DNA from: Mogibacterium sp.
GTDB taxonomy: Bacteria > Bacillota > Clostridia > Peptostreptococcales > Anaerovoracaceae
NCBI GenBank assembly: GCA_024403035.1
Contig: JAKSSP010000008.1
Location: 1-64,000, forward strand
Direction of reading: 5' to 3'
Length of the DNA stretch: 64,000 nt
Shown here: positions 5,017 through 61,116 of the stretch, in pieces
How positions within the stretch are numbered: position 1 is the stretch's first letter
Layout: every line of letters begins with the position of its first letter
The notes under the pieces: model-generated
What the model was told of the DNA's origin: nothing
The model's database searches: none
What the model saw: only the letters and a program-made list of their open reading frames with translations
Made by a program: the position numbers and the translations under genes

Positions 5017-6819
5017 ATGCTGAACAAATTCTGTAAGAAACCGCTCTATGAAGTGACACTCAAGATGGCAAACGTTGCCACGGGTGTTGAAAAGGCCGAC
5101 ATGGTCATCAAAAACGCAAAGCTGGTAAACGTATGCACCTGCGAGATCCAGGAGGGCATAGACGTCGCGATAGCTGAAGGAAGGATTGCTCTTGTTGGCG
5201 ATGCTTCTCAGTGCATTGGTGATGCCACTAAAGTGATCGACGCGACCGGCCAGTATATCGCCCCGGGCTTCATGGACGCGCACATCCACGTAGAATCTGC
5301 GATGATCGGCGTGGGCGAGTACGCGAGGGCTGTAGTTCCTCACGGTACCACAGGCATCTTCATGGACCCCCATGAGATCTGCAACGTCTGCGGACCTGAC
5401 GGTGTAAAAGCCATGATAGAAGACGGCAAACGCGTGCCTCTCAAGTCTATGTCCAATGTGCCGTCGTGTATACCTGCCGTTGCCGGATTTGAAGATACCG
5501 GCTCTCACATCGGACCTAAGGAGGTCCGTGAGATGATGACATGGGACGGCGTCATGGGACTTGGCGAAATGATGAACTTCCCGGGCGTTATCTACGGCGA
5601 TCCTAACGTACACGGCGAACTGGCTGAGACTCTTAAAGCCGACCAGGTGATAACAGGTCACTATTCCGTGCCTGATACCGCCAACGGACTGAACGCCTAC
5701 ATCGCGTCAGGTGTAAGATGCTGCCACGAGTCGACTCGCGCCGAGGACGTGCTTGAGAAGATGCGTCACGGCATGTACGCACTCATGCGCTACGGCAGCG
5801 CCTGGCACGACATGCCGGTGATCATACGCGCGATACTCGACAACAAAGTAGAGGACCGCTTCGCCTGCCTCATCTCTGATGATACGCATCCGGATACGCT
5901 GATCAGCGAAGGACATCTGGACTACATCGTCCGCCTCGCTGTGAAAGAGGGCCTCGATCCTATAAAAGCCATCCAGTATGTCACCATCAACCCGGCCACC
6001 TGCTTCCGCATGGACCATGAGATGGGAAGCATCACACCTGGCAAGTGCGCGGACATCGTCTTCTTTGACGACCTGAATGACATACAGATCACCCGTACGA
6101 TGATCGACGGCGACATCGTTGCGGAGAACGGCAAGATGACAGTCGAGATCGGCAAGTCCGCTTTCCCTGCTTCGGTCTATGACACGATGCACGTTGGCGA
6201 GACCATCACACCGGAAAGCTTTAAGATCGCGGCTCCTGAAGGCGCCGGCGCAAGCGTGAAGACCCGCGTCATGGAGATCATCCCTAACCGCGTAGGCGAT
6301 TACGAAAGGATCATGGATCTTAAGGTCGCGGACGGAGCAGTTCAGAATGACCCTGATAACGATGTGATAAAAATGGCTGTGTTTGAACGCCACCACAAGA
6401 CCGGAACGAAGGGCCTCGGATTCCTTAAGGGATTTGGGCTCAAGAAAGGCGCTATGGCGCAGACCGTCTCCCACGATGCTCACAACCTGCTGGTAGCAGG
6501 CACGAATGATGAGGATATGGCGCTTGCAGCCAACACTCTGATCGAGTGCGGAGGAGGCCTTTGCGCGGTCGCTGACGGAAAGGTGCTGGCTCTGGTGCCG
6601 CTGCCTATCGCGGGACTCATGAGCGATGAACCGGTAGAGGTAGTCGCTGATAAGATCACAAAACTCGACGCGGCCTGGAAGGATATGGGATGCACCATCA
6701 ATTCGCCGTACATGACCATGGCACTGATGGCTCTTGCCTGCCTGCCTGAGCTGAGGCTCACTAACCGCGGCATGGTAGACTGCAGGACATTCCAGTTCGT
6801 CGACCTATTTGCTGAATAA
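5017..6819 (+). CDS. ade: Adenine deaminase
   Basis: Deaminates adenine to hypoxanthine plus ammonia in purine salvage; metal-dependent amidohydrolase. The 600-residue protein matches the bacterial Ade/AdeC architecture: a small beta domain, then the TIM-barrel metal motif DAHIHVESAM (His89, His91), DPHEICNVCG, an SDDTHPD segment, and a C-terminal domain with LVAGTNDEDMALA and GG-rich substrate loops. AGGAGGG lies 6 bases before the ATG. It is transcribed alone between two terminators. The family call is firm because both the double-His motif and the adenine-deaminase-specific PHEI segment are present. Confidence 0.93.
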   Translation: MLNKFCKKPLYEVTLKMANVATGVEKADMVIKNAKLVNVCTCEIQEGIDVAIAEGRIALVGDASQCIGDATKVIDATGQYIAPGFMDAHIHVESAMIGVGEYARAVVPHGTTGIFMDPHEICNVCGPDGVKAMIEDGKRVPLKSMSNVPSCIPAVAGFEDTGSHIGPKEVREMMTWDGVMGLGEMMNFPGVIYGDPNVHGELAETLKADQVITGHYSVPDTANGLNAYIASGVRCCHESTRAEDVLEKMRHGMYALMRYGSAWHDMPVIIRAILDNKVEDRFACLISDDTHPDTLISEGHLDYIVRLAVKEGLDPIKAIQYVTINPATCFRMDHEMGSITPGKCADIVFFDDLNDIQITRTMIDGDIVAENGKMTVEIGKSAFPASVYDTMHVGETITPESFKIAAPEGAGASVKTRVMEIIPNRVGDYERIMDLKVADGAVQNDPDNDVIKMAVFERHHKTGTKGLGFLKGFGLKKGAMAQTVSHDAHNLLVAGTNDEDMALAANTLIECGGGLCAVADGKVLALVPLPIAGLMSDEPVEVVADKITKLDAAWKDMGCTINSPYMTMALMALACLPELRLTNRGMVDCRTFQFVDLFAE

Positions 6820-6868
6820 AAAAGCGGGCAGTCCTTGCTGCCCCGCTGAGTAAGCTCAAAAGAAAAAC

Positions 6869-6888
6869 CCCGCGCCTGCCGGCGCGGG
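6869..6888. terminator. Bidirectional terminator between ade and the MBL-fold gene
   Basis: 8-bp GC-rich stem CCCGCGCC / GGCGCGGG with a TGCC loop, an A-run before it and ATTTATTTT after it, so it can serve ade (+) and the minus-strand operon. A second hairpin at about 6826-6848 (GCGGG...CCCGC) lacks a U-tract. Confidence 0.8.
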
Positions 6889-6895
6889 ATTTATT

Positions 6896-7720
6896 TTATA
6901 TCTCAAATACCAGTCCCGTTCTGAAGCTGCGTGCTTTGTCTCCCAGCTCTTCGCGAAGTATATCCATCGCCCTGTCGCCTGTGCAATGCCCGGTATAGAT
7001 GCTTTCTACCCCGGTGCTTCCAAGTCGGTGCGCGAATGCCCTTACATAATCATCGCTCTTGTTGAAAAGATGGAACCCTCCGATCACCGCCTTTATCTTG
7101 CGGTCAGGGTATGCCTGTATCGCTTCATTGACGATACTGTCAGCGCCCGCGTGTGAGCAGCTGTTGAACACGGCCACCCCGTCATCCAACTCAAAGATGA
7201 GACTCTGTTCATGTCTGAAATCGTCAGGGATGTACTCCCCCGGTCCTCTTTTCAGATACATGGCTTCCGCTATCCCCAGATTTTCGAGATCCGCTGTCGT
7301 ATGTCCGAGCAGCCTTATACCATCATCTATCATCATGTCGGCATCTGCCCTGACGATGCGGTCCTTATACCTTTCAAGGATCCCCTGCGGTATGCCCGCG
7401 TACACGAACTCACCATCTCTCAGGTCATAACAGTCCTCTCCGCATTCGCGCGCTACATAAAGAGGAGCGTAGCCGTTGACTTCGAAGAATGTTTCAAAGC
7501 CGTTCGCGTGATCGTCATGCGCGTGCGAAAGAACGGCACAGTCGACCTTCTCAAGATCGATACCGAGCTTTTCAGCGTTTTCGGCAAACAGGCCGGACAG
7601 ACCGGCGTCAAGCAGTATGGTCCTGTCCCCGTACTCTATGAGATGAGACAGGCCCCACTCGCCTTTCAGGTTTTCGCCATCTATATTATCCGCGAGTACC
7701 GTTACCTTCATGTGTTTCAT
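6896..7720 (-). CDS. MBL-fold metallo-hydrolase
   Basis: Member of the metallo-beta-lactamase superfamily, resembling the group that includes the MJ0936/7,8-dihydropterin synthase-like hydrolases. The metal-binding motif SHAHDDH is at residues 65-71 (HxHxDH type), with LLDAGLS (about 37-43), CSHAG and GGFHL further on. No signal peptide, so cytoplasmic. The natural substrate is not predictable. It is the last gene of a three-gene minus-strand operon, 4 bases after the metallophosphoesterase. A second ATG three codons later (MKVTVL) is an equally good start. 274 residues is usual for the group. Confidence 0.8.
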   Translation of the reverse strand: MKHMKVTVLADNIDGENLKGEWGLSHLIEYGDRTILLDAGLSGLFAENAEKLGIDLEKVDCAVLSHAHDDHANGFETFFEVNGYAPLYVARECGEDCYDLRDGEFVYAGIPQGILERYKDRIVRADADMMIDDGIRLLGHTTADLENLGIAEAMYLKRGPGEYIPDDFRHEQSLIFELDDGVAVFNSCSHAGADSIVNEAIQAYPDRKIKAVIGGFHLFNKSDDYVRAFAHRLGSTGVESIYTGHCTGDRAMDILREELGDKARSFRTGLVFEI

Positions 7721-8366: not shown

Positions 8367-10333
8367 TTTATCCTCGCCTTCTCGACGCCGCCGTATTTGA
8401 CGGTATTCTGCGCTTCATCATTCAGCGAGTCGATCTTAGGGATCTCGCCTATGATGTTTTCGTTTAGCTGATCCATCATGATGATATCCTTTGAGCCGAG
8501 CTTATCAAACGGGTCGAAACGGCCGTCAATGATGTCATCCCTAAGCAGGCCCACAAGTTTCTTTGTGTACGGAGACAGGTCATCCGACAGCTCTATGTCC
8601 ACGACCCCTGACACCATGCCCCACCAGTAATTGGTGGCCTGATCCTTTTTGTCAACCCGGCTGGCATGATAGGTGCCTTCTATCATGGTCCTGATGATGA
8701 TCTCGTAGAGCTTGCCCCATTTGATTATAGGCGCTGCGAGATTGGTGATACGGCAGCTGCCGGACAGGTCGTTTCCCTGGCCCGGCTCACAGCGCTCCAC
8801 ATAACAGAGACCATATGCATCACTGCCGTCAACGCTGTAAAGCGAGTCCACAGCGGATATCACATGGATCCCCTTATCCACCATGTCCCACCACCAGTTG
8901 GTATCGCGCCTGGAATACCAGTCAAGGTGGATCTTCACCTGAGGATCCGCCATGGCAGCGCCTATCGCGAACGCGTTGATTCCGGCTATGGTACCGTAGA
9001 TAGGATAGTCAGAACAGTAGCCGATGGTATGTGTACCGTCAGAAGCCGCAGCCAGCCCCGCGACAATACCTGAGAGGAATTTGGCTTCGTAGATCTTAAC
9101 GTAATATGTGCGGACAGCCTGATGCGCCAGATTGACCGAGCAGTTTAGGAACTCTATGTCCTTATACTCTATGGCAGCGCGAAGAGCGTCGTTGATCTGT
9201 CCCGGGGAAGTCGTGAACACTGCTTTAGCGCCCCACTCAGCAGCATCCTTCACCGCGGCCTCAAAACTTTCCGAATCGCCGCAGCCCTCGTAGCACCTGG
9301 TCCCGACCAGTCCGCCATATGCTTTTTCAAGCCTGAGCCGTCCTTTTTCATGGTCAGCTATCCTGCTTGATGCCTCTATGCGCTTGTCATAAATGAATGC
9401 TGCCATGAATGGGTTCTTTACCGAATACGTTACAGCCGGGATCACTTTTCCGATCAGCGAATCAGGACCCGCTACAAGATTGCCGGCTTTGGTAATGATG
9501 CTGCCTGCCTTGACTGCCTCATCTGATGATTCTACCAAAGCGACTCTTTCCTTGTTGGCTTCTGTAAGGAGTTCCTTTTTGATCCGCATCAGCTTCTTAC
9601 TTACGACCGAAGGAGACTGATGGTTCAGCGCGTCCCTGATGTATATGCGCAAGTAGACGACGAATGCGTCGCCCGGCGGTAGGTCGGGCATCTTATCGCC
9701 GAGCTCGCGCCACGCCATCGAAAACATCCAGTAGGCGCTGCGCAGCGACCTTACCAGATCGTGCGGCCAGGGTTCTTCAAGATCACGGCCCAGGAGCTCG
9801 GCTATCTCCGCGTACGCTCCCTCCCAGGTCGTCTCTATATCGTAAACAGGGGCAACATTGTAGAACTTAAGAAACTCCCTGTACTCCGGGTGCTGATCCA
9901 ATACATCGGCCGAAGGAACTATCCTTTCCACATCCGCGGCTATCGTCGGAATATCAAGAAAGCGGCTCACTGAGATCCGCTTGTTGCCCTCCTCCACGTA
10001 GAACCTGTGCAGGTATTCATACACCTTGACCGGATCTCTGAATCCCTCGCTGATCTGAGCTTTATACAGATTGTTCCACTTCGCGGCAAACTCGCTGTCC
10101 GGTCCGATAAGCGGCATGAAATCCGGCGCAAACGAATTCTGCCTGGCACGTGTCTTTGTGCCTGCTACCAGATCTACCGGTATCTCAATGATGCCCAGTG
10201 ACTGGTGTGTCAGTGTGTCAGCATCAGGAGCTATATCGTCGAGTGCCGGCAGATACGGGTACTCACCCGCCGCGTGCTTTGTCTTATATGCTTTTTCACC
10301 GGCCTTAAGGGCCTTGTTATATTCTTCAGTCAT
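8363..10333 (-). CDS. ParB-like domain fused to BMP (PnrA/Med-like) nucleoside-binding domain
   Basis: The 656-residue protein has no signal peptide or lipobox, so it should be cytoplasmic. The N-terminal part (about 70-170) contains DPVKVYEYLHRFYVEEGNKRISVSRFL in short segments, typical of a ParB/sulfiredoxin-like nuclease fold with its GNKR motif. The C-terminal part (about 290-640) resembles the periplasmic binding domain of BMP-family ABC transporters (VFTTSPGQINDALRAA, IGYCSDYPIYGTIAGINAFA, WWWDMVDKGIHVISAVDS). BMP proteins normally sit outside the membrane and bind purine nucleosides. Here the domain probably acts as an internal sensor. GGAG precedes the ATG. It is the first gene of an operon with a phosphoesterase and an MBL hydrolase. 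Function unknown. Confidence 0.7.
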   Translation of the reverse strand: MTEEYNKALKAGEKAYKTKHAAGEYPYLPALDDIAPDADTLTHQSLGIIEIPVDLVAGTKTRARQNSFAPDFMPLIGPDSEFAAKWNNLYKAQISEGFRDPVKVYEYLHRFYVEEGNKRISVSRFLDIPTIAADVERIVPSADVLDQHPEYREFLKFYNVAPVYDIETTWEGAYAEIAELLGRDLEEPWPHDLVRSLRSAYWMFSMAWRELGDKMPDLPPGDAFVVYLRIYIRDALNHQSPSVVSKKLMRIKKELLTEANKERVALVESSDEAVKAGSIITKAGNLVAGPDSLIGKVIPAVTYSVKNPFMAAFIYDKRIEASSRIADHEKGRLRLEKAYGGLVGTRCYEGCGDSESFEAAVKDAAEWGAKAVFTTSPGQINDALRAAIEYKDIEFLNCSVNLAHQAVRTYYVKIYEAKFLSGIVAGLAAASDGTHTIGYCSDYPIYGTIAGINAFAIGAAMADPQVKIHLDWYSRRDTNWWWDMVDKGIHVISAVDSLYSVDGSDAYGLCYVERCEPGQGNDLSGSCRITNLAAPIIKWGKLYEIIIRTMIEGTYHASRVDKKDQATNYWWGMVSGVVDIELSDDLSPYTKKLVGLLRDDIIDGRFDPFDKLGSKDIIMMDQLNENIIGEIPKIDSLNDEAQNTVKYGGVEKARIK

Positions 10334-36431: not shown

Positions 36432-38162
36432 CTATATGTATCCGAGCTTGCGGTTTGCTCTTATCTGAAGCTTATTCAGCTCAGGTTCTATATATGGAGC
36501 TACTACTCTGGCTATCTCGCGGCCATCGACCTGCAGCACTATAACTGTAGGTCTATTTCCAGCTCCACCTGCTGCAGCCTCTGCTGTGCCATTCACAATG
36601 GCCTCACCCCAATCATCTAGTGTCTTCCAGAATGGCGTCAGTGGTACTCCAGCCTCAGCTCCTGCTTCACCAAAGCCATGTACCAAGGTAGGCTTTTCGA
36701 AGAGTACGCCTTCCTTGTGCCATGCAATCGACAGCTTTGGGATCGTGCCCTTAAGAAGGTCCCCGAGCTTCCACCCGGATGGGCTTATGCTGAATGACGG
36801 CTTTGGTATGTGCGGCGTCGACACCTTGAACTTGAAAAAGCCCTTTATCTTATCTACGATCTCCTTGACCTTATCTCTGGCTGTTTCGAACGGCTTCGTG
36901 ATCGCTGCCTTTGCTGCCGCAAATTTTGATTTAACAGCTCCAACGGTTGCGGAAGCTTTCTGGATTAATGCTGTTTTAATCGGTTCGAACTTTGCTGCTA
37001 TCGCCTGTGCGCCGGTCTGTATAAGGCTGGCGGCCGCTTGTCCGAGAGCTGATATGAAGTATCCCACCAAACTGATTGCTGCTGCAGCTAGTTTTGGCAG
37101 ATTCCTTAAAAGGCCCAGCGCAAAATTCTTTATGAATTCGCCTGCAGCATTACCAACAGCCGGATCGTCTCCTGATTCCTGAAGTTTCGTAATTATATTC
37201 TCTGCAAGATGACCTAGCGAGTCAGGGAGATTTAGAAATACATTGCCAACTGCTTTAAGCAAGTTCTCTCCGAATGTAATCGCCGATTCGAGCAAGGCGT
37301 CCATTGCGCCGGATACGTCTTCTCCGACTACGAGCTGTGCCATAAAGTTCGATGCTGCCGATTTCATAGACGCAAAGGATCCGGACAGTGTGCTTTCAGC
37401 CTCCTTTGCAGTTGTGCCGGTAATGCCAAGCTCACCTTGTATAACGTGTATCGCTTCATAGACATCAGATAGATTGTTGATATCATATTTGACGCCTGTC
37501 ACCTTCTCTGCATCGGCCAGCAATCTCTCCATTTCGGTTTTTGTGCCGCCATAGCCGAGTTTGAGGTTGTCGAGCATGGTGTAATTCTGCTTGGCAAAGC
37601 CCTGATACGCATTCTGGATATCCTGTATATTGGTACCCATTTTGTTGGCGTTATCAGACATGTCTATAACAGCCTGGTTGGCAGCTTCTGCCGCCTTTGA
37701 CTGATTGCCGCCTACAGACTGAAGGAGCGAGGCGGCGAATGACGTGGACTGCTCCATGTACTCATTGGCGGATATGCCTGCGGTCTTCCAAGCATCGTTG
37801 GCGTTTTTCATCATCTGGTCTTCAACCGCCTTGAGCCTGTTATACTCGCCAGATACTTCATTCACGGTCTTGCCGACCATTTTGGCGTATTCCTGAGCGC
37901 TTTTTGCTCCTTTAGCACCAAAAAGCGTCTCTATGCCGCCTCTGCCTTGCTCATACCGAGCGCCTTCCTGAATCGTGTCCTTCAGGATCTTTCCTATTCC
38001 GGCTGCAACGATCGCCTTTTTGATTGTCCCAATCAGTTTGGCTCCTGTGCTTTTGCCGGCACTATCTGCCTCTCCGCTTAGTACACTCGAAATGCTTCCG
38101 GATATGCCCTGTGCCGATGGCACTATCTGTACATATGCTTTTCCAAGATTACTCTGTGCCAT
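36432..38162 (-). CDS. Tail tape measure protein
   Basis: 576 residues, short for the family, implying a short tail. The N-terminal part contains the conserved region around FAKQNYTMLDNLKLGYGGTKTEMERLL, a hallmark of one siphophage tape-measure family. Hydrophobic helices occur at about 330-390. The C-terminus has PALVHGFGEAGAEAGVPLTP-like residues (PTLVHGFGEAGAEAGVPLTP). Length sets tail length and the protein carries DNA-ejection functions. It overlaps the DUF5361 reading frame by 14 bases. Confidence 0.88.
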   Translation of the reverse strand: MAQSNLGKAYVQIVPSAQGISGSISSVLSGEADSAGKSTGAKLIGTIKKAIVAAGIGKILKDTIQEGARYEQGRGGIETLFGAKGAKSAQEYAKMVGKTVNEVSGEYNRLKAVEDQMMKNANDAWKTAGISANEYMEQSTSFAASLLQSVGGNQSKAAEAANQAVIDMSDNANKMGTNIQDIQNAYQGFAKQNYTMLDNLKLGYGGTKTEMERLLADAEKVTGVKYDINNLSDVYEAIHVIQGELGITGTTAKEAESTLSGSFASMKSAASNFMAQLVVGEDVSGAMDALLESAITFGENLLKAVGNVFLNLPDSLGHLAENIITKLQESGDDPAVGNAAGEFIKNFALGLLRNLPKLAAAAISLVGYFISALGQAAASLIQTGAQAIAAKFEPIKTALIQKASATVGAVKSKFAAAKAAITKPFETARDKVKEIVDKIKGFFKFKVSTPHIPKPSFSISPSGWKLGDLLKGTIPKLSIAWHKEGVLFEKPTLVHGFGEAGAEAGVPLTPFWKTLDDWGEAIVNGTAEAAAGGAGNRPTVIVLQVDGREIARVVAPYIEPELNKLQIRANRKLGYI

Positions 38163-38846: not shown

Positions 38847-39461
38847 TTATGCTCCTGTTGACCCAGTCGCTCCGGTCGCACCAGTCGGCTTAGCAGTGTA
38901 CTCAAAATGAGTATTGCCTTCGGAGTCAGACGGATATGCCGTCACAGTTACTTCATATCCCACAAGATCTGTTTTCTTGTAGGCGATCTCCGAGATCTCG
39001 GTTATCTTGCCTTTCGGGATGACTGTTCTGCGGATGTACCCGCCTTTGAGCAATACATCGATGACGTAGGCATGCTCTGTAAGCTCCTTTGCATTGGCTT
39101 TTGCGATCATCTCTGTATCGATAGATCCGGTTACATTCTCGTCACCAAAGATCTCCTTGTTGACCACTTCTTTAATGATTTCAAGCATCTTATACTTGAA
39201 TGTGTCAGTCTTGCTGTCCTGCAGACTGGCTATCTCAGAGCCGGACCAGTCTTTGACAGGCGTAGAGCTTCTGCTGTTATTGTTAACATAACCGTCTTCG
39301 GAGATATATCCGAGTGTCACAAAAGCCTCAGGGAGTTCTGTCAGAGCGCTGGTTGGGATCGTGAGCGAGTTATCGATCACCGCCCTGTAGATCGCACCGG
39401 CGACTAACGGTTCTCCTGCGGACACATTGTCCACGTTTGCTATATTTGTATTATCTGGCAT
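38847..39461 (-). CDS. Major tail tube protein with collagen-like C-terminal tag
   Basis: 204 residues with the beta-rich core of siphophage tube proteins (LITEL-like start, SDGYVNNNSRSSTPVKDWSG, GYEVTVTAYPSDSEGNTHFEY). The core ends at FEYTAKP and is followed by TGATGATGSTGA, an extension not part of the tube fold. The identical 12 residues end the major capsid protein. The Gly-X-Thr pattern is a candidate O-glycosylation target. Position just upstream of the chaperones supports the call. Confidence 0.85.
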   Translation of the reverse strand: MPDNTNIANVDNVSAGEPLVAGAIYRAVIDNSLTIPTSALTELPEAFVTLGYISEDGYVNNNSRSSTPVKDWSGSEIASLQDSKTDTFKYKMLEIIKEVVNKEIFGDENVTGSIDTEMIAKANAKELTEHAYVIDVLLKGGYIRRTVIPKGKITEISEIAYKKTDLVGYEVTVTAYPSDSEGNTHFEYTAKPTGATGATGSTGA

Positions 39462-39475
39462 GTAATTACCTCCAT

Positions 39476-39814
39476 TCAGTAGTGGGTGATATCGAACACC
39501 GCCTGATAGCGGTATCTTTTTCTTTGAGTATCTGAGAAGTTGTAATCTGAATTAATGCTGACATCTGTGACTTCATCGAGCGAGCAAGCCTCCATCATGG
39601 CAGCCTTTACTAGCTCGTTAAGCGTCATGGCATCAAGCAGGCTCTGCCCGTATGACTTGACGGCTATCATTGATGTAATAAGCATATTCTCCTCTGCCGA
39701 GGATCCTGTCTTCTCAATAACCAAATAACGCGGATTCACCCCATCGGGTTCCTCCGCGTGTACAGGGCAGTTCATTGACTCCTGCAGGTATTCAAGGATC
39801 GTTACTTCAATCAT
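39476..39814 (-). CDS. Tail terminator/completion protein
   Basis: 112 residues; YLVIEKTGSSAEENMLITSMIAVKSYGQSL and YNFSDTQRKRYRYQAVFDITHY are typical of small tail-completion proteins that cap the tube (gpU-like fold). It sits between the gp10-like protein and the major tail protein, the usual location. Confidence 0.7.
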   Translation of the reverse strand: MIEVTILEYLQESMNCPVHAEEPDGVNPRYLVIEKTGSSAEENMLITSMIAVKSYGQSLLDAMTLNELVKAAMMEACSLDEVTDVSINSDYNFSDTQRKRYRYQAVFDITHY

Positions 39815-40056
39815 GAGCCGCCTCCCAATGCTTTAAGCAGTGTGTTGTTGTCGAAGTTGTCCCGAACGGCCTCTTCTGTCTCGGCATGTACAGAAGCGTT
39901 TACTCTGGTCTTGCCTACATAGGTATTGACCTCGTATCCGGATCCGGCACGTGCCTGGACATCTCTTGCATATGATTCGCATATACCAGCCATCTCGGGT
40001 GACTGCATCAGCTCTCTTACACCGTCCCTATCAAGTTCAAATCTGAAATTACTCAT
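39811..40056 (-). CDS. Head-tail joining protein, HK97 gp10-like
   Basis: 81 residues; FELDRDGVRELMQSPEM and CESYARDVQARAGSGYEV match short gp10-like/minor head-tail proteins. Overlaps both neighbours by a few bases, indicating coupled translation in the connector module. Confidence 0.65.
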   Translation of the reverse strand: MSNFRFELDRDGVRELMQSPEMAGICESYARDVQARAGSGYEVNTYVGKTRVNASVHAETEEAVRDNFDNNTLLKALGGGS

Positions 40057-40378
40057 AGCGTTCCACCATGACTTTCTTGTTCCAGCTGAGAGGTATGAGA
40101 TCTTCGATGCCCATTACGGGCGGAGCTACAACATGCCAGTCCTGACCAAAGAAGGTGACACGGCTGTCGTTCCAAACATGAGTATCACCCTTTGGCAGTG
40201 CCAGTTGATACTCCACCTTTGCACCATTTAGGTCAAGGCCACTGGGTATATCCTCTGCTGTGGCAGGAGCCACAAGCACGTTTTTGATATCAACGGGGAC
40301 CTCTTCATAGACAGGTCTGTTAAGACGGTCGGTCCCTGTCTGCACCTTTTCGTGCAATGTTACCGTTATGCCGCGCAT
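40049..40378 (-). CDS. Head completion / minor capsid connector protein
   Basis: 109 residues from MRGITVTLHEKVQTG. This start is supported by GGAGG 7 bases before and by lying one base after the previous gene's stop. FGQDWHVVAPPVMGIEDLIPLSWNKK is the C-terminal beta part seen in stopper/minor capsid 2-type proteins. The long upstream reading to 40579 overlaps the connector gene and is not supported. Confidence 0.65.
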   Translation of the reverse strand: MRGITVTLHEKVQTGTDRLNRPVYEEVPVDIKNVLVAPATAEDIPSGLDLNGAKVEYQLALPKGDTHVWNDSRVTFFGQDWHVVAPPVMGIEDLIPLSWNKKVMVERYE

Positions 40379-40379
40379 A

Positions 40380-40763
40380 TCAGGCCTCCGATTCTGATGT
40401 AAGCTCTTCCAGAGGACTCCATGTGCCGATTTTATTACCTTCACCCAGTAGACCTCTCTCAAGCTTCGAGAGATAGAGTTCCCCCGCAGCACCATTTCCG
40501 ATTTTCCAGCTCTGAGCATATCCAAGAGCTGATCTGCTGCCTTCACTTGCTCCGATCGGGATACCGGTGTCAGTACCATCTCCCAGCATGCGTATCACAG
40601 CTCTGCATGAAACCAGCTTTTTGGCTTCAGACGGTGCCTTAGAATTATAGCTGTCGATAATAACCGCTATGTCTTCGAGCAGCGTTTCGCATGCTGCCGC
40701 TTCCTCTGGGCTCAGATCATGTGTAAGCCTAGCCGATATATCCTCGGTTGTTGCATATGCCAT
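40380..40763 (-). CDS. Head-tail connector (gp6/gp15-like adaptor)
   Basis: 127 residues from MAYATTEDISARLTHDLSPEE. ATG 40763 is preferred because AGAGGTGG precedes it; a GTG at 40772 is the alternative. The helical adaptor signature (CETLLEDIAVIIDSYN, VSCRAVIRMLGD, SALGYAQSWKIGNGAAGELYLSKLE) matches proteins that bind under the portal. Confidence 0.75.
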   Translation of the reverse strand: MAYATTEDISARLTHDLSPEEAAACETLLEDIAVIIDSYNSKAPSEAKKLVSCRAVIRMLGDGTDTGIPIGASEGSRSALGYAQSWKIGNGAAGELYLSKLERGLLGEGNKIGTWSPLEELTSESEA

Positions 40764-40774
40764 ACGAGCCACCT

Positions 40775-40954
40775 CTACTCCTTAGTTGTCTTTTTAGATG
40801 TCGTCTTTCTGGATGCCACTTTCTTCGGCTTTTCTGCAGGTGTGGAAGCAGAGGCAGCAAGCCTGTGGCCTGCCTCTTTGTATTCCTCTACACGGTCTTC
40901 CGCGACCCACATCTCATTGCCGAAGAGCGAGTTGATCATTTTAACCTTCTTCAT
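40775..40954 (-). CDS. Small basic capsid-module protein (59 residues)
   Basis: MKKVKMINSLFGNEMWVAED at the N-terminus and a Lys/Thr/Ser-rich tail (KKVASRKTTSKKTTKE). GAGGAGG lies 5 bases before the ATG, and the gene overlaps the glycosyltransferase end by 14 bases. The N-terminal pattern (KVKMINSLFGNEMWVAEDRVEEY) is common among small phage head proteins in this position. Function unknown; the basic Ser/Thr tail could bind DNA. Confidence 0.7.
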   Translation of the reverse strand: MKKVKMINSLFGNEMWVAEDRVEEYKEAGHRLAASASTPAEKPKKVASRKTTSKKTTKE

Positions 40955-41606
40955 GCTTTACCTCCTCAGGCCACTGCAGTCTTCTGAGCATATGCCCGCA
41001 TCCGACTCTCACATCAGCCATGACCGGAATGCCGGCAGTTTTCAGCTTCTCGCAAAAATACAGATCTTCCGAAAGCATTCCCCGATGGTCGTCCGCGTAA
41101 TTGACCCAGTCATACCACGGATAAGCCAGCCTTCTGAACAGCTCAGTTTTAATCATCGCGCATCCCATTCCGCCGCCGTGTATCCGTATTTTTTTTACGC
41201 CTTCCCCAATCATTTTCTTAAGCTCAGAAGCTTCATACTCACTCTCGAGAGGGTAATTGAAATACTGAGATCCGTCTGGTTGATAGAGCTTGCAGATGCA
41301 CGTCCTTCCACGGTATATATTGTCCGCATCACGATGCGCATAGTATCCGAGGCATAGCGGCTGTGGATCTTCCAGTAGATGCGCTATAGCATCTTTTGGA
41401 AGGACCACATCGTTATCCACCATCAGCACATAATCGTAGTTGCCGTCAATGGCACGCTGCGCGATGTTGTTTCTGGCCGTAGCACAATCGTACCCACGCA
41501 CAAAATCGAAGTCTATGATGTGACCACATGGGTCACACTCATAGATCGACTTGAAAGTGTCGGGATAGATCGTCTCAAAGGTCGGTACTGCTATGAGAAT
41601 CTTCAT
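40941..41606 (-). CDS. GT-A fold glycosyltransferase in the capsid operon
   Basis: 221 residues. Family 2-like features: IAVPTFETIYPDTF at the N-terminus, ARNNIAQRAIDGNYDYVLMVDNDVVLP with a DxD-type metal motif (DND, about 64-66), HGGGMGCAMIKTELFRRL and SEDLYFCEKLKTAG, the acceptor/catalytic Asp/Glu region. No membrane helix, so it acts in the cytoplasm on newly made proteins or sugars. It begins 13 bases after the major capsid gene and overlaps the next small gene. Its placement among head genes, rather than in a sugar locus, suggests that its acceptor is a virion protein. Confidence 0.82.
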   Translation of the reverse strand: MKILIAVPTFETIYPDTFKSIYECDPCGHIIDFDFVRGYDCATARNNIAQRAIDGNYDYVLMVDNDVVLPKDAIAHLLEDPQPLCLGYYAHRDADNIYRGRTCICKLYQPDGSQYFNYPLESEYEASELKKMIGEGVKKIRIHGGGMGCAMIKTELFRRLAYPWYDWVNYADDHRGMLSEDLYFCEKLKTAGIPVMADVRVGCGHMLRRLQWPEEVKHEEG

Positions 41607-41619
41607 GCATCAGCTCCTA

Positions 41620-42552
41620 TTAAGCTCCTGTCGAGCCCGTCGCTCCGGTTGCTCCGGTAACGGCGGAGTACGGAGTTGTCAGCAGATTGAATACAGATGT
41701 ATCGGCGCGGAATCCGACCTCGATCTCTGCTCTAACAGCTACCATGTTCTGCTGGAACAGATTGATGGTCTTTGTTTCGCCGTTATCCTCATATGTGAGT
41801 GTCGCTTCCTCGCTGATGCCGATCTGTACGCCCTCAACGGTACCGTAGAGTGCCATCGACCAGTCGCCGGCTACGCCTACTACATTAGGGACGCTTTCGC
41901 CCGTACCCGCCTTGTATGCGGCTTTGCTCTGAAGAGTCTTCGCTCCGAGGATCATCGGGATAGCACCTTCAGCAACGCTGTTGATGAAGAGTGGCCTGCC
42001 TTCTCCGTCCTTGGCAGAAAGAAGTGTGCCTCTTGCCTTAGGAGAAATGGCATATCCGTTAAGGATTCCGTCGTGGTCAGCGATATCTACATCTGCGGCA
42101 ACAAGACCGTCGTAAGTATTCGTGCCACCGATATTCTGCGCTGTACAAGCGGCAAATGTATCGAAGTTGCTTCCCGGAGCACTTCCGTGGAAGACTGTGC
42201 TGTCGAATTTCTTACCGAGCGCTGCAGGCAGCCTCTTTACCAGCTCATCGTAGAGTCTTTTCGAGTCTCTTACGAACTCTTTGGAGAACGGTACGATGAC
42301 AGCCAGCTTGTAAGCTGTCATGATCTTCTTGTCGAGACCTGGATTGGATACAGGCTTTACCCCAGTCTCGCTGACCCAGTCAGCGGATGGATCCGAAAGA
42401 ATTACCGGGATCTCTACGCCCCTGCCCGGCAGATCGATCTGTCTTGCGAGCTGCATTACTGCAGACGCTTCCTGTGTTTTCTGAAGTATCTCCTGGCTTA
42501 CGTCAGCTGGGAGATCGATGTTGGTTCTGTTGGTTGGTATTCCGCTTGGCAT
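41620..42552 (-). CDS. Major capsid protein (HK97 fold) with collagen-like C-terminal tag
   Basis: 310 residues. HK97-type phage capsid sequence: EILQKTQEASAVMQLARQIDLPGRGVEIPV near the N-arm, KKIMTAYKLAVIVPFSKEFVRDS, and LEQ-like beta strands to VRAEIEVGFRADTSVFNLLTT. The core ends at TPYSAV and is followed by TGATGATGSTGA, identical to the end of the major tail protein, with different codons. It follows the scaffold gene by 14 bases. No protease domain is seen nearby. Confidence 0.88.
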   Translation of the reverse strand: MPSGIPTNRTNIDLPADVSQEILQKTQEASAVMQLARQIDLPGRGVEIPVILSDPSADWVSETGVKPVSNPGLDKKIMTAYKLAVIVPFSKEFVRDSKRLYDELVKRLPAALGKKFDSTVFHGSAPGSNFDTFAACTAQNIGGTNTYDGLVAADVDIADHDGILNGYAISPKARGTLLSAKDGEGRPLFINSVAEGAIPMILGAKTLQSKAAYKAGTGESVPNVVGVAGDWSMALYGTVEGVQIGISEEATLTYEDNGETKTINLFQQNMVAVRAEIEVGFRADTSVFNLLTTPYSAVTGATGATGSTGA

Positions 42553-59363: not shown

Positions 59364-59532
59364 TCGCAGGGCGAAAACCGGAGACTCTTTCTACCCATGG
59401 TAGATGAGTTGCATTAATAATATACCTATTTACACGCATTTTTGCAATAATTGTCACAAAAAACTCACAGGAATCATAACAAAATAACAACTTGTCAGGC
59501 CATTTTGATGGCAAAAGCACTATATATTGATT

Positions 59533-61116
59533 ATGAAAGCGGTTATCTACGCAAGATACTCTTCCCACGCTCAACGTGAGGAGTCAATAGAGGGTCAGCT
59601 TCGCGTCTGCTATGAATATGCAGCACGCGAGAATATTGACGTGATCAAAGAATATACCGACAGTGCTATGACTGGCACTAACGACCAGCGGCCTTCGTTC
59701 CAGCGTATGATTGCAGACAGTGCCAAGCATCAGTTTGAGGTCGTTCTGGTTTATGCCGTCGACCGCTTCTCAAGAGAGCGATATGACGCTGCCATTTACA
59801 GGAAGAAGCTCAAGGACAACGGCGTGCGGATCATCTCTGTTACACAGCCTATCGATGACTCTCCGGAGGGGATCCTCCTTGAGTCTCTGCTGGAGGGCCT
59901 TGCGGAGTATTACTCCAAGAACCTTGCCAGAGGCGTCAAACGTGGAATGCGTGAGAATGCCCTTAAGTGTATGGCTGTTGGCGGAGTCGTTCCTACTGGT
60001 TACAAGGTCGACCGCGACACCATGAAGTATGTGATCGATGAGCCGAAGGCTGCTATCATCAGAGAGATCTTCCAGATGTATGCGAACGGTCACAGCATCG
60101 TAGATATATGCCAGCACTGCAATTCCCTCGGATATAAGACGAGCCGCAATCAGCCGTTTACACGTAACAGCATGTCTACTATACTCAAAAACAGAAAGTA
60201 TACAGGGCTGTATGTTTTTGAAGATATCGAGATCCCGGGCGGTATGCCTGTGATAATCGACCAGAAGACCTTTGATGCGGTTCAAAAGAGGATATCTATG
60301 GGGCGCAAAATATCTCCTAAAAAGCACGAAGATGTAGATTTCATTCTGACCGGCAAGCTGTTCTGCGGTCACTGCGGTCAGGCGATGGTGGGCACTAGCG
60401 GGAATAGTAAAAGTGGAAAGACCTATTATTATTACACCTGCCGTGTTCATGGCAATAACTGCACTAAACACGCAGAGAAGAAAGATGAGCTTGAGGATTT
60501 CATCATCGACTATATACTCAATCACTTCCTTGTGCGTGAGAATGTCGAGATCATCGCCAGCCGAATAATGGACATTATTAATAATGACGAATTCGCGGCA
60601 ATAATGAAGAGCATAGAGGCTCAGATCAAGGATAAGGATCGCAGGATCGCCAATCTGATGAAGGCCGTGGAGGACTCCGGCGATGCAGACCTCTTCATGC
60701 CTCGTATCATGGAGCTGAAGAAAGAAAAGTCTCAGCTGGAGAGAGAGCTTGCTGACGAGAAGATTTCTAACCTATCATTCCTAAGCAAAGATATCCTCAC
60801 TGCTTGGATGCTGGACTTTGCCGAAAGGAACGATGGATCCAGAGCTTTCCATCGAGAACTGATCACTACGTTCGTTAATGCCATCTATGTTTATGACACT
60901 GACGAGCCGTCTGACGATCCTAAAAAGAAACGGAAGAAGCGCAAAATAGTCATTGCTTTCAACACTTCCGGGCCTGAGAGTAAGGTAACCCTCGAGTGTT
61001 CGGATAAGTGTCTGAACGGACCACCAAAACATTCCAAATCGAACCTTTATCATTACAGACGAGGATTCGCTGTAGAGATATGGTTCAACAGGGAGCGAGG
61101 AATCAACGGCTGGTAG
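59533..61116 (+). CDS. Large serine recombinase (integrase)
   Basis: 527 residues from MKAVIYARYSSHAQREESIE; the ATG at 59533 is used, not the upstream TTG. Resolvase domain with catalytic Ser (about residue 10), YAVDRFSRERYDAA and ESLLEGLAEYYSKNLARGVK; recombinase domain; zinc-ribbon domain with CGHCGQAMVG and a second Cys pair (CRVHGNNC); coiled coil; C-terminal basic region. Carries out attP x attB integration. No Shine-Dalgarno precedes the ATG, and a TATATT box lies just 5-10 bases upstream. Confidence 0.92.
   Translation: MKAVIYARYSSHAQREESIEGQLRVCYEYAARENIDVIKEYTDSAMTGTNDQRPSFQRMIADSAKHQFEVVLVYAVDRFSRERYDAAIYRKKLKDNGVRIISVTQPIDDSPEGILLESLLEGLAEYYSKNLARGVKRGMRENALKCMAVGGVVPTGYKVDRDTMKYVIDEPKAAIIREIFQMYANGHSIVDICQHCNSLGYKTSRNQPFTRNSMSTILKNRKYTGLYVFEDIEIPGGMPVIIDQKTFDAVQKRISMGRKISPKKHEDVDFILTGKLFCGHCGQAMVGTSGNSKSGKTYYYYTCRVHGNNCTKHAEKKDELEDFIIDYILNHFLVRENVEIIASRIMDIINNDEFAAIMKSIEAQIKDKDRRIANLMKAVEDSGDADLFMPRIMELKKEKSQLERELADEKISNLSFLSKDILTAWMLDFAERNDGSRAFHRELITTFVNAIYVYDTDEPSDDPKKKRKKRKIVIAFNTSGPESKVTLECSDKCLNGPPKHSKSNLYHYRRGFAVEIWFNRERGINGW

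Follow-up and report, generated by a model that had tools for sequence, protein, structure and literature searches.

Demonstrating glycosylation of the virion requires chemistry on a cultured phage. Freeman et al. (2023, Cell Host Microbe) reportedly described it for mycobacteriophages such as Che8. Here we analyse a prophage in a stretch of 64,000 nucleotides from a Mogibacterium sp. (contig JAKSSP010000008.1, positions 1 to 64,000; this whole stretch is referred to as the window). Its major capsid protein and major tail tube protein, which belong to different families, share the same C-terminal 12 residues (TGATGATGSTGA, the tag), and a putative glycosyltransferase is encoded between them. 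We estimate the probability that tag and enzyme constitute a phage-encoded module for virion O-glycosylation at roughly 80%.

According to a paper citing the Che8 work, Che8 has glycan groups attached to its major capsid protein, and a related phage has putative glycosyltransferase genes near the 3' end of its genome (PMC11256854). The window phage resembles these in encoding its own glycosyltransferase, but within its structural operon, beside the capsid gene; glycans on structural proteins, reported for such phages, are predicted here. The proteins also differ at their ends: the Che8 capsid finishes with ..FNKTGS and the tail with ..QYSDGS, neither of which contains the GxT (Gly-x-Thr) repeats of the window tag. 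The accessible parts of the accounts that cite Che8-type glycosylation do not mention a shared, appended acceptor tag. Nor is virion glycosylation general, because ten other phages that were stained showed no glycoprotein (PMC12894461).

For the peptide itself, the closest parallel is SgtA of C. difficile. This enzyme transfers beta-O-linked N-acetylglucosamine in vitro onto threonines of synthetic 12-16-mers (e.g., VGPTGATGATGADGV, TGATGLIGPTGATGA and related peptides), accepts serine, depends on metal, with Mn2+ best, and is encoded by a gene adjoining bclA3 (PMC7157674). By analogy, these assays show that GxT peptides very similar to the tag can serve as acceptors as free chains. The genetic arrangement is alike in that a transferase gene adjoins the gene of a GxT-repeat substrate, here at a distance of 13 bases from the capsid gene and again in relatives. 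However, BclA3 is found on the spore surface and has a long collagen region, and the phage tag is 12 residues on virion proteins; similarly, SgtA has 358 residues with C-terminal TPR repeats, whereas the phage enzyme has 221 and no TPR match in Pfam. No shared GxT tag of a phage capsid and tail was named in the titles and opening lines of abstracts returned by our literature searches, which were mostly without subscription papers. Virion glycosylation is already known; within the searchable literature, it is the appended tag as a shared acceptor signal that appears new.

Co-occurrence of tag and enzyme

Three head-protein queries from which the tag had been removed, representing the families phrog_10 (that of the window capsid), phrog_544 and phrog_909, gave 219 loci. 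The enzyme was scored by profile hidden Markov model within the examined stretch and the head tag by a fixed pattern, and 181 loci were counted after dropping 4 without a closed head protein and 34 enzyme-negative ones with less than 1.6 kb downstream. Over all three families, the GxT tag was present in 45 of the 48 enzyme-positive loci and in 0 of the 133 enzyme-negative loci. By family, the tagged and untagged loci numbered 8 and 0 with the enzyme and 0 and 58 without it in phrog_10 (Fisher p = 1.7e-10), so that no scored relative of the window capsid lacking the enzyme in its examined stretch carried a tag; 9 and 1 versus 0 and 52 in phrog_544 (p = 4.9e-10); and 28 and 2 versus 0 and 23 in phrog_909 (p = 4.8e-13). 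Because these p values take related sequences as independent, which they are not, we also counted parsimony changes on FastTree trees, treating L270 and L272, whose enzyme scores are weak, as enzyme-negative. For phrog_10, phrog_544 and phrog_909, respectively, the enzyme required 2, 5 and 7 changes, the tag 2, 4 and 7, and the two jointly 2, 5 and 7: as reconstructed on these trees, tag and enzyme are gained and lost in step. One exception, L228, has a capsid ending in GGATGA, a single repeat that falls below the fixed pattern.

The place at which the tag begins is informative as well. Enzyme-free relatives of the window capsid stop at about this point (..CFNLLTTPYA in L110 and ..CFNLLSTPYSA in L095, compared with ..VFNLLTTPYSAV-TGATGATGSTGA in the window), and the shared tag is for this reason more than chance.

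The window tail protein, used as a query, found no relatives in the scan of viral contigs, and tails were therefore identified inside loci fetched by head or enzyme queries. The comparison covers the phrog_10 and phrog_544 sets, where a tail was recognised in 62 of 66 and 45 of 62 loci, respectively (L180 is outside these). By the same pattern, tagged tails occurred in 2 of 5 enzyme-positive and 0 of 57 enzyme-negative loci of the phrog_10 set, the three misses ending in GGTTGA, GGTTGA and S11-GGN, and in 5 of 6 and 2 of 39, respectively, of the phrog_544 set. A search for the enzyme in 13 records chosen for different endings or as odd exceptions (L178, L169, L198, L213, L237, L179, L139, L141, L154, L156, L160, L161 and L128), which include all the enzyme-negative loci searched over the whole record, found none, a weak negative since several of these are fragments.

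Proceeding from the tag, we searched viral contigs for GATGATGA followed by TAA or TAG. By reading, 34 of the 44 stretches found belong to head or tail proteins of 32 contigs (including L347, with only 12 residues visible at the contig edge), and the other 10 to collagen-like proteins or other short ones. The enzyme is present in 25 of the 32 contigs, and edge fragments of it (matches of 24 and 17 residues) in 2 more; in L345 it was found by whole-record search, a short way upstream of the genes for scaffold and capsid and next to a gene that by eye is PF04464-like. Four of the five contigs without it are shorter than 10 kb (L327, which is L178, at 8.4 kb; L343; L218; L357), the fifth being L323 (26.4 kb). 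Near the 10 stretches on collagen-like or short proteins, the enzyme was found in none of the examined pieces and as a weak match in 1 of 9 whole records (L333 is outside this count).

The reverse search, with the enzyme as query, yielded 117 relatives in viral contigs, of which the best 80, at 64-81% identity, were examined. In a pattern scan, 77 of the 80 loci showed a C terminus resembling the repeat, or 76 after reading (the L035 match is not a real gene). Among the four that lack a tagged neighbour (L021, L022, L035 and L065), the L021 contig begins inside a tag and is the same as L347. The usual arrangement is a tagged head protein upstream of the enzyme, either adjoining it or one gene apart; often the tail tube is tagged as well, and it lies mostly 0.6-2 kb, and up to about 3 kb, downstream. 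Tagged head proteins that were tested belong to phrog_10, 544, 3270, 422, 29 and 909, and tagged tails to phrog_117, 885, 2645, 158 and 88. On a tree of 74 enzymes with an assigned tagged head protein, there are 9 changes of head family, as against a minimum of 5 for six families and a mean of 31.4 with shuffled labels; the module therefore tends to stay with one head family, yet has switched families several times.

The original prediction, made from the letters of the window, held that the enzyme modifies the shared tag on both capsid and tail, and proposed a search of phages for co-occurrence of the two, which we found in all three head families. Phages with both proteins tagged and the transferase consistently absent were named as contrary evidence; the opposite was observed, 27 of 32 tagged contigs having the enzyme when the two edge fragments are included, with L323 as the lone longer exception. 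Co-occurrence thus supports the proposed link between enzyme and tag. We infer glycosylation itself from sequence, and with it the chemical reaction, Thr/Ser as acceptor, a phage rather than a host enzyme starting the chain, and surface exposure of the tag.

The transferase, its companions and its hosts

In the proposed module, a small, soluble GT-A-type enzyme would take a sugar from a nucleotide-sugar donor and attach it to Thr (and Ser) hydroxyls within the C-terminal tag. The tag, short and flexible, is appended to abundant structural proteins, i.e., the capsid or a small head protein, and the tail tube. Because the tag would work as a portable acceptor sequence, one enzyme could modify unrelated proteins.

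The window enzyme is probably a GT-A-like, GT2-like glycosyltransferase. Its DxD motif is D64-N-D66, and D64, D66, E180, D181 and H205, which we take to be catalytic residues, are invariant in an alignment of 39 sequences that includes relatives at 21-24% identity. The Pfam GT2 match is weak (E = 0.0058-0.01; 17 bits, below the curated cut-off of 23.3), as is that of the L142 enzyme (18.5 bits against the same cut-off); in PHROGs, the window enzyme matches phrog_1574 (E = 1e-13). The nearest solved structures to the enzyme profile are yeast Mnn9 (E = 1.3e-4), STIV A197 (E = 0.0017) and procollagen galactosyltransferase 1 (E = 0.0054), all remote, with about 54-66 residues aligned, and different from the phage enzyme in hosts and substrates. 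A membrane helix is unlikely, as originally predicted, because the highest 19-residue Kyte-Doolittle mean is only 1.02.

In many relatives, an adjoining enzyme of GT8 or PF04464 type probably adds to the glycan. An extra open reading frame (ORF) of at least 150 residues lies between tagged protein and enzyme in 27 of the 80 enzyme loci. Among second enzymes picked by eye, Pfam confirmed GT8 (PF01501) in 3 of 3 (L047, L051 and L065, although L065 does not belong to the 27) and both candidates for PF04464 (L074 and L027); the remainder were classed by eye. These companions suggest di- or oligosaccharides. L005 has a 537-residue ORF starting 28 bases past the tagged head protein, which by eye is a fusion of GT8-type and PF04464-type enzymes.

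Searching one genome from each of 84,980 species with the enzyme profile gave 31 loci, mostly from metagenome bins in which mis-binning is possible. Their record titles include Lachnospiraceae, Oscillospiraceae, Solobacterium, Blautia, Coriobacteriales groups, Elusimicrobiaceae, Paludibacteraceae, Saccharibacteria, Methanobrevibacter and others, and many are from ruminants. By reading, 14 of the 31 have tagged proteins resembling head or tail, with both proteins seed-matched in 10 and placed by eye in L292, L298, L304 and L305; the ends in L299, L304, L305 and L308 are of GQT/TTGA or poly-T type. The seed-matched head protein of L301 is untagged, L296 alone has a GxT-rich protein directly upstream of the enzyme, and 6 of the 31 show no tag in view. 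In 10 of the 12 Methanobrevibacter loci (three of which come from one bin), an enzyme at 41-45% identity is directly followed by GxT-rich collagen-like proteins, and these loci look like proviruses of methanogens. In L306, L309, L311, L313, L314, L316-L319 and L321, all from Methanobrevibacter bins, several collagen-like proteins with GDTGATG-type repeats come after the enzyme.

Annotated phages are poor in this enzyme: 23 of 50,697 records match at E 1e-5, the best at 41.7% identity, and no close relative was found among them. Around the host, 6 of 197 genomes of its family match at E 1e-3, its own included, and 1 of 391 genomes of its class, its own, at E 1e-40. Two of the other five matches in the family, L386 and L387, are inside proteins of 508 and 537 residues. 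In L383/L389 (G214:C1:99541-100125), a TAG is reported within the enzyme match; the ORF in the DNA is open over 194 residues and ends in TAG, so that the reported codon is probably just its terminal stop.

These data bear on the alternative that the tag is glycosylated but a host enzyme adds the first sugar, the phage enzyme only extending or capping the chain. The sugar donor must be the host's in any case, no second transferase adjoins the window enzyme, and the second enzymes of the 27 relatives suggest that labour is divided. However, the phage transferase is the tag's constant partner, whereas the second enzyme differs between loci or is missing; and the module occurs in bins with labels as distant as Firmicutes, Coriobacteriales, Bacteroidota and Methanobrevibacter, so that dependence on an initiating host enzyme is less likely. 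We therefore consider initiation by the host unlikely.

Variation of the tag and divergence of its codons

Because the GxT triplets resemble bacterial collagen-like proteins, and such proteins stand beside related enzymes in the Methanobrevibacter loci, the tags could instead serve as tips with a structural or adhesive role, forming trimers or binding a ligand, with the enzyme acting elsewhere (e.g., on host wall glycans). The tag had originally been called collagen-like, and the resemblance holds; it is, however, probably mere resemblance, because the equivalent tags of relatives are T10, (EET)n and poly-S, which are not Gly-x-y. The window tag has about four triplets in its 12 residues and no long Gly-x-y tract, and neither the window capsid nor the tail has a collagen match in Pfam.

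The two tags of a genome often vary together. Of 122 loci given, 70 had both head and tail proteins identified, and 50 unique pairs with both ends tagged entered a permutation test, under a lenient rule that accepts Ser/Thr-rich ends and thus overstates tail tagging in phrog_909. The observed within-genome similarity was reached in 0 of 20000 permutations and, within the window's own capsid and tail families (n = 11), in 4 of 20000. Examples are GATGASGASGASGASN and GATGASS in L295 (a Solobacterium bin), EETEETEETEQTE and ETGETGETEETE in L310 (Blautia), A-T10-GA and G-T10-GN in L308 (Coriobacteriales), GETSEG on both proteins in L080 and SGATGATNG on both in L061; L001 is a counter-example, its capsid having GATGATGATGA and its tail poly-S. 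In an enzyme subclade at 44-48% identity (L142, L146 and L152, with L147, L149 and L150 alike by look), capsids end in GGQTG and tails, in the four loci where the tail end is visible, in GGQTG or GGTTG. What is conserved is Thr/Ser in a low-complexity end and not a collagen repeat, which fits O-glycosylation acceptors; the matched variants (GAS, EET, ten threonines) speak for O-glycosylation of Thr/Ser rather than for a collagen helix. A collagen function, which would also leave the joint gain and loss of tag and enzyme unexplained, was set aside as very improbable, given that tags drift to T10 or T10-G, EETEET, GASGAS and poly-S in some genomes, in several of them on both proteins together.

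A further kind of shared ending occurs among enzyme-free relatives of the window capsid. In L139, L154, L156, L160 and L161, capsid and tail end alike in ..VPSI/..VPSV, ..SVPSI/..SVSI and others (the L139 genes are at 6173-7042 and 8469-9029), and in L128 both end in ..DSE; these endings are possibly another shared C-terminal tag.

That the shared tag lacks a function and reflects recent copying, gene conversion or an error of assembly has a negligible probability: although the two tags of L061 are alike at all but 1 of 9 third positions, so that occasional copying between genes may happen, 5 of the 70 same-genome pairs have identical terminal runs of at least 6 residues in which 28 of 56 codons differ, at third positions only (33.0 with a standard deviation of 3.6 would be expected from a random codon draw), and the association is found again in many contigs and in families unrelated to each other. 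The peptide of the tag is kept while its DNA is close to randomised, in agreement with what had been argued from the window. Chance or a low-complexity artefact was ruled out by the co-occurrence tables and by codon divergence.

Exceptions and implications

Several observations weigh against the reading of tag and enzyme as a glycosylation module. No enzyme was found with the tagged tail of L178, with the tail of L169, which ends in TGTTGH, in its 43 kb contig, or in L323, where both capsid and tail are tagged; the L323 contig is possibly incomplete, and this is the one serious exception. The enzyme also occurs apart from a tag. L270 and L272 are enzyme-positive and untagged, with enzymes 21-24% identical to that of the window; the tail of L180, an enzyme-positive phrog_544 locus, is untagged; and L022, L035 and L065 have no tag on the protein adjoining the enzyme, their contigs containing several GxTGxT-coding stretches elsewhere, without gene assignment, in excess of a reversed control pattern. 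Close to the host, where 10 kb flanks were read, L388 (from its genus) has the enzyme with a capsid ending in RTHTA and a tail ending in GGSSS, and L389 (from a relative in its family) has the enzyme, a capsid end of GETGETGETGET and an untagged tail, both being partial exceptions; L385 has a weak enzyme match in a locus of 3.2 kb, with an upstream ORF ending in FTKVKK. For phrog_885-type tails (n = 8), the within-genome match was not above chance (9585 of 20000 permutations). Moreover, a locus was counted as enzyme-negative when the enzyme was absent from the examined stretch, which reached at least 1.6 kb past the head gene on the downstream side, and such a locus may have the enzyme elsewhere in its contig.

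The extent of the predicted coat is also narrower in some relatives than was first supposed. The original prediction had the sugar coating the whole virion, which does not hold for all of them. In the phrog_909 loci that were read (L030, L042, L070 and L053), the tag is on a small head protein of 123-134 residues, and the protein of 352-360 residues after the enzyme, which in L030 is a phrog_29 major head protein, is untagged. By reading, most tails of this group lack a GxT tag, which again counts against the module as proposed.

A broader proposal seems to us probable, if less firmly so than the module itself: that the tag alone is a complete, portable signal, recognised as a peptide by a dedicated viral enzyme whatever protein carries it, and that bacterial viruses may have added this kit repeatedly to unrelated capsids, head proteins and tail tubes, as methanogen viruses would have done in a collagen-like variant. 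Enzyme subclades would each have a tag dialect to match (GAT, GQT, GAS, EET, poly-T), and different glycans would come from the second transferases. If so, virion glycosylation could be read directly from genome sequence, and tag plus enzyme would predict sugar-coated phages and proteins in gut and rumen metagenomes without close cultured relatives. An enzyme of this kind, small and soluble and acting on a C-terminal tag of 12 residues, could also be of use in producing defined glycoproteins in E. coli. Such a module raises the question of why gut and rumen phages and archaeal viruses repeatedly gain and lose a sugar coat.

Organization of the window locus

The features of the locus are collected in Table 1. 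Examination of the window agreed with the first description of it: capsid and tail, placed in different Pfam and PHROGs families and otherwise unrelated, have identical endings; a recount of their tag codons found the differences at third positions and nowhere else; and the transferase ORF, with its D-N-D motif, starts 13 bases past the capsid stop codon.

Table 1. Features of the tagged structural genes and the transferase in the window
Feature	Position	Strand	Remarks
Major capsid protein, HK97-type	41620-42552	minus	310 residues; PF05065, E 1.5e-27; phrog_10; predicted glycosylation substrate
Capsid C-terminal tag, TGATGATGSTGA	41623-41658	minus	predicted acceptor: Thr/Ser
GT-A-like glycosyltransferase	40941-41606	minus	221 residues
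Major tail (tube) protein	38847-39461	minus	204 residues; PF25681, E 1.2e-10; phrog_117; predicted second substrate
Tail C-terminal tag, TGATGATGSTGA	38850-38885	minus	peptide identical to capsid tag; 7 of 12 codons different
GITGTT match	37410-37427	minus	short third place outside capsid and tail genes

In a six-frame pattern scan of the window, the two tags and the GITGTT place were the sole matches. The three genes sit in a complete-looking prophage, which also has a serine recombinase (59527-61116), terminase, portal, holin and amidase.

Two minor features concern the same interval. In L178, L169 and L213, an ORF of 222-227 residues that by eye resembles a GIY-YIG homing endonuclease lies between the capsid and tail genes. 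In the window, a Lys/Thr-rich ORF of 59 residues (40775-40954, minus strand) overlaps the 3' end of the glycosyltransferase gene.

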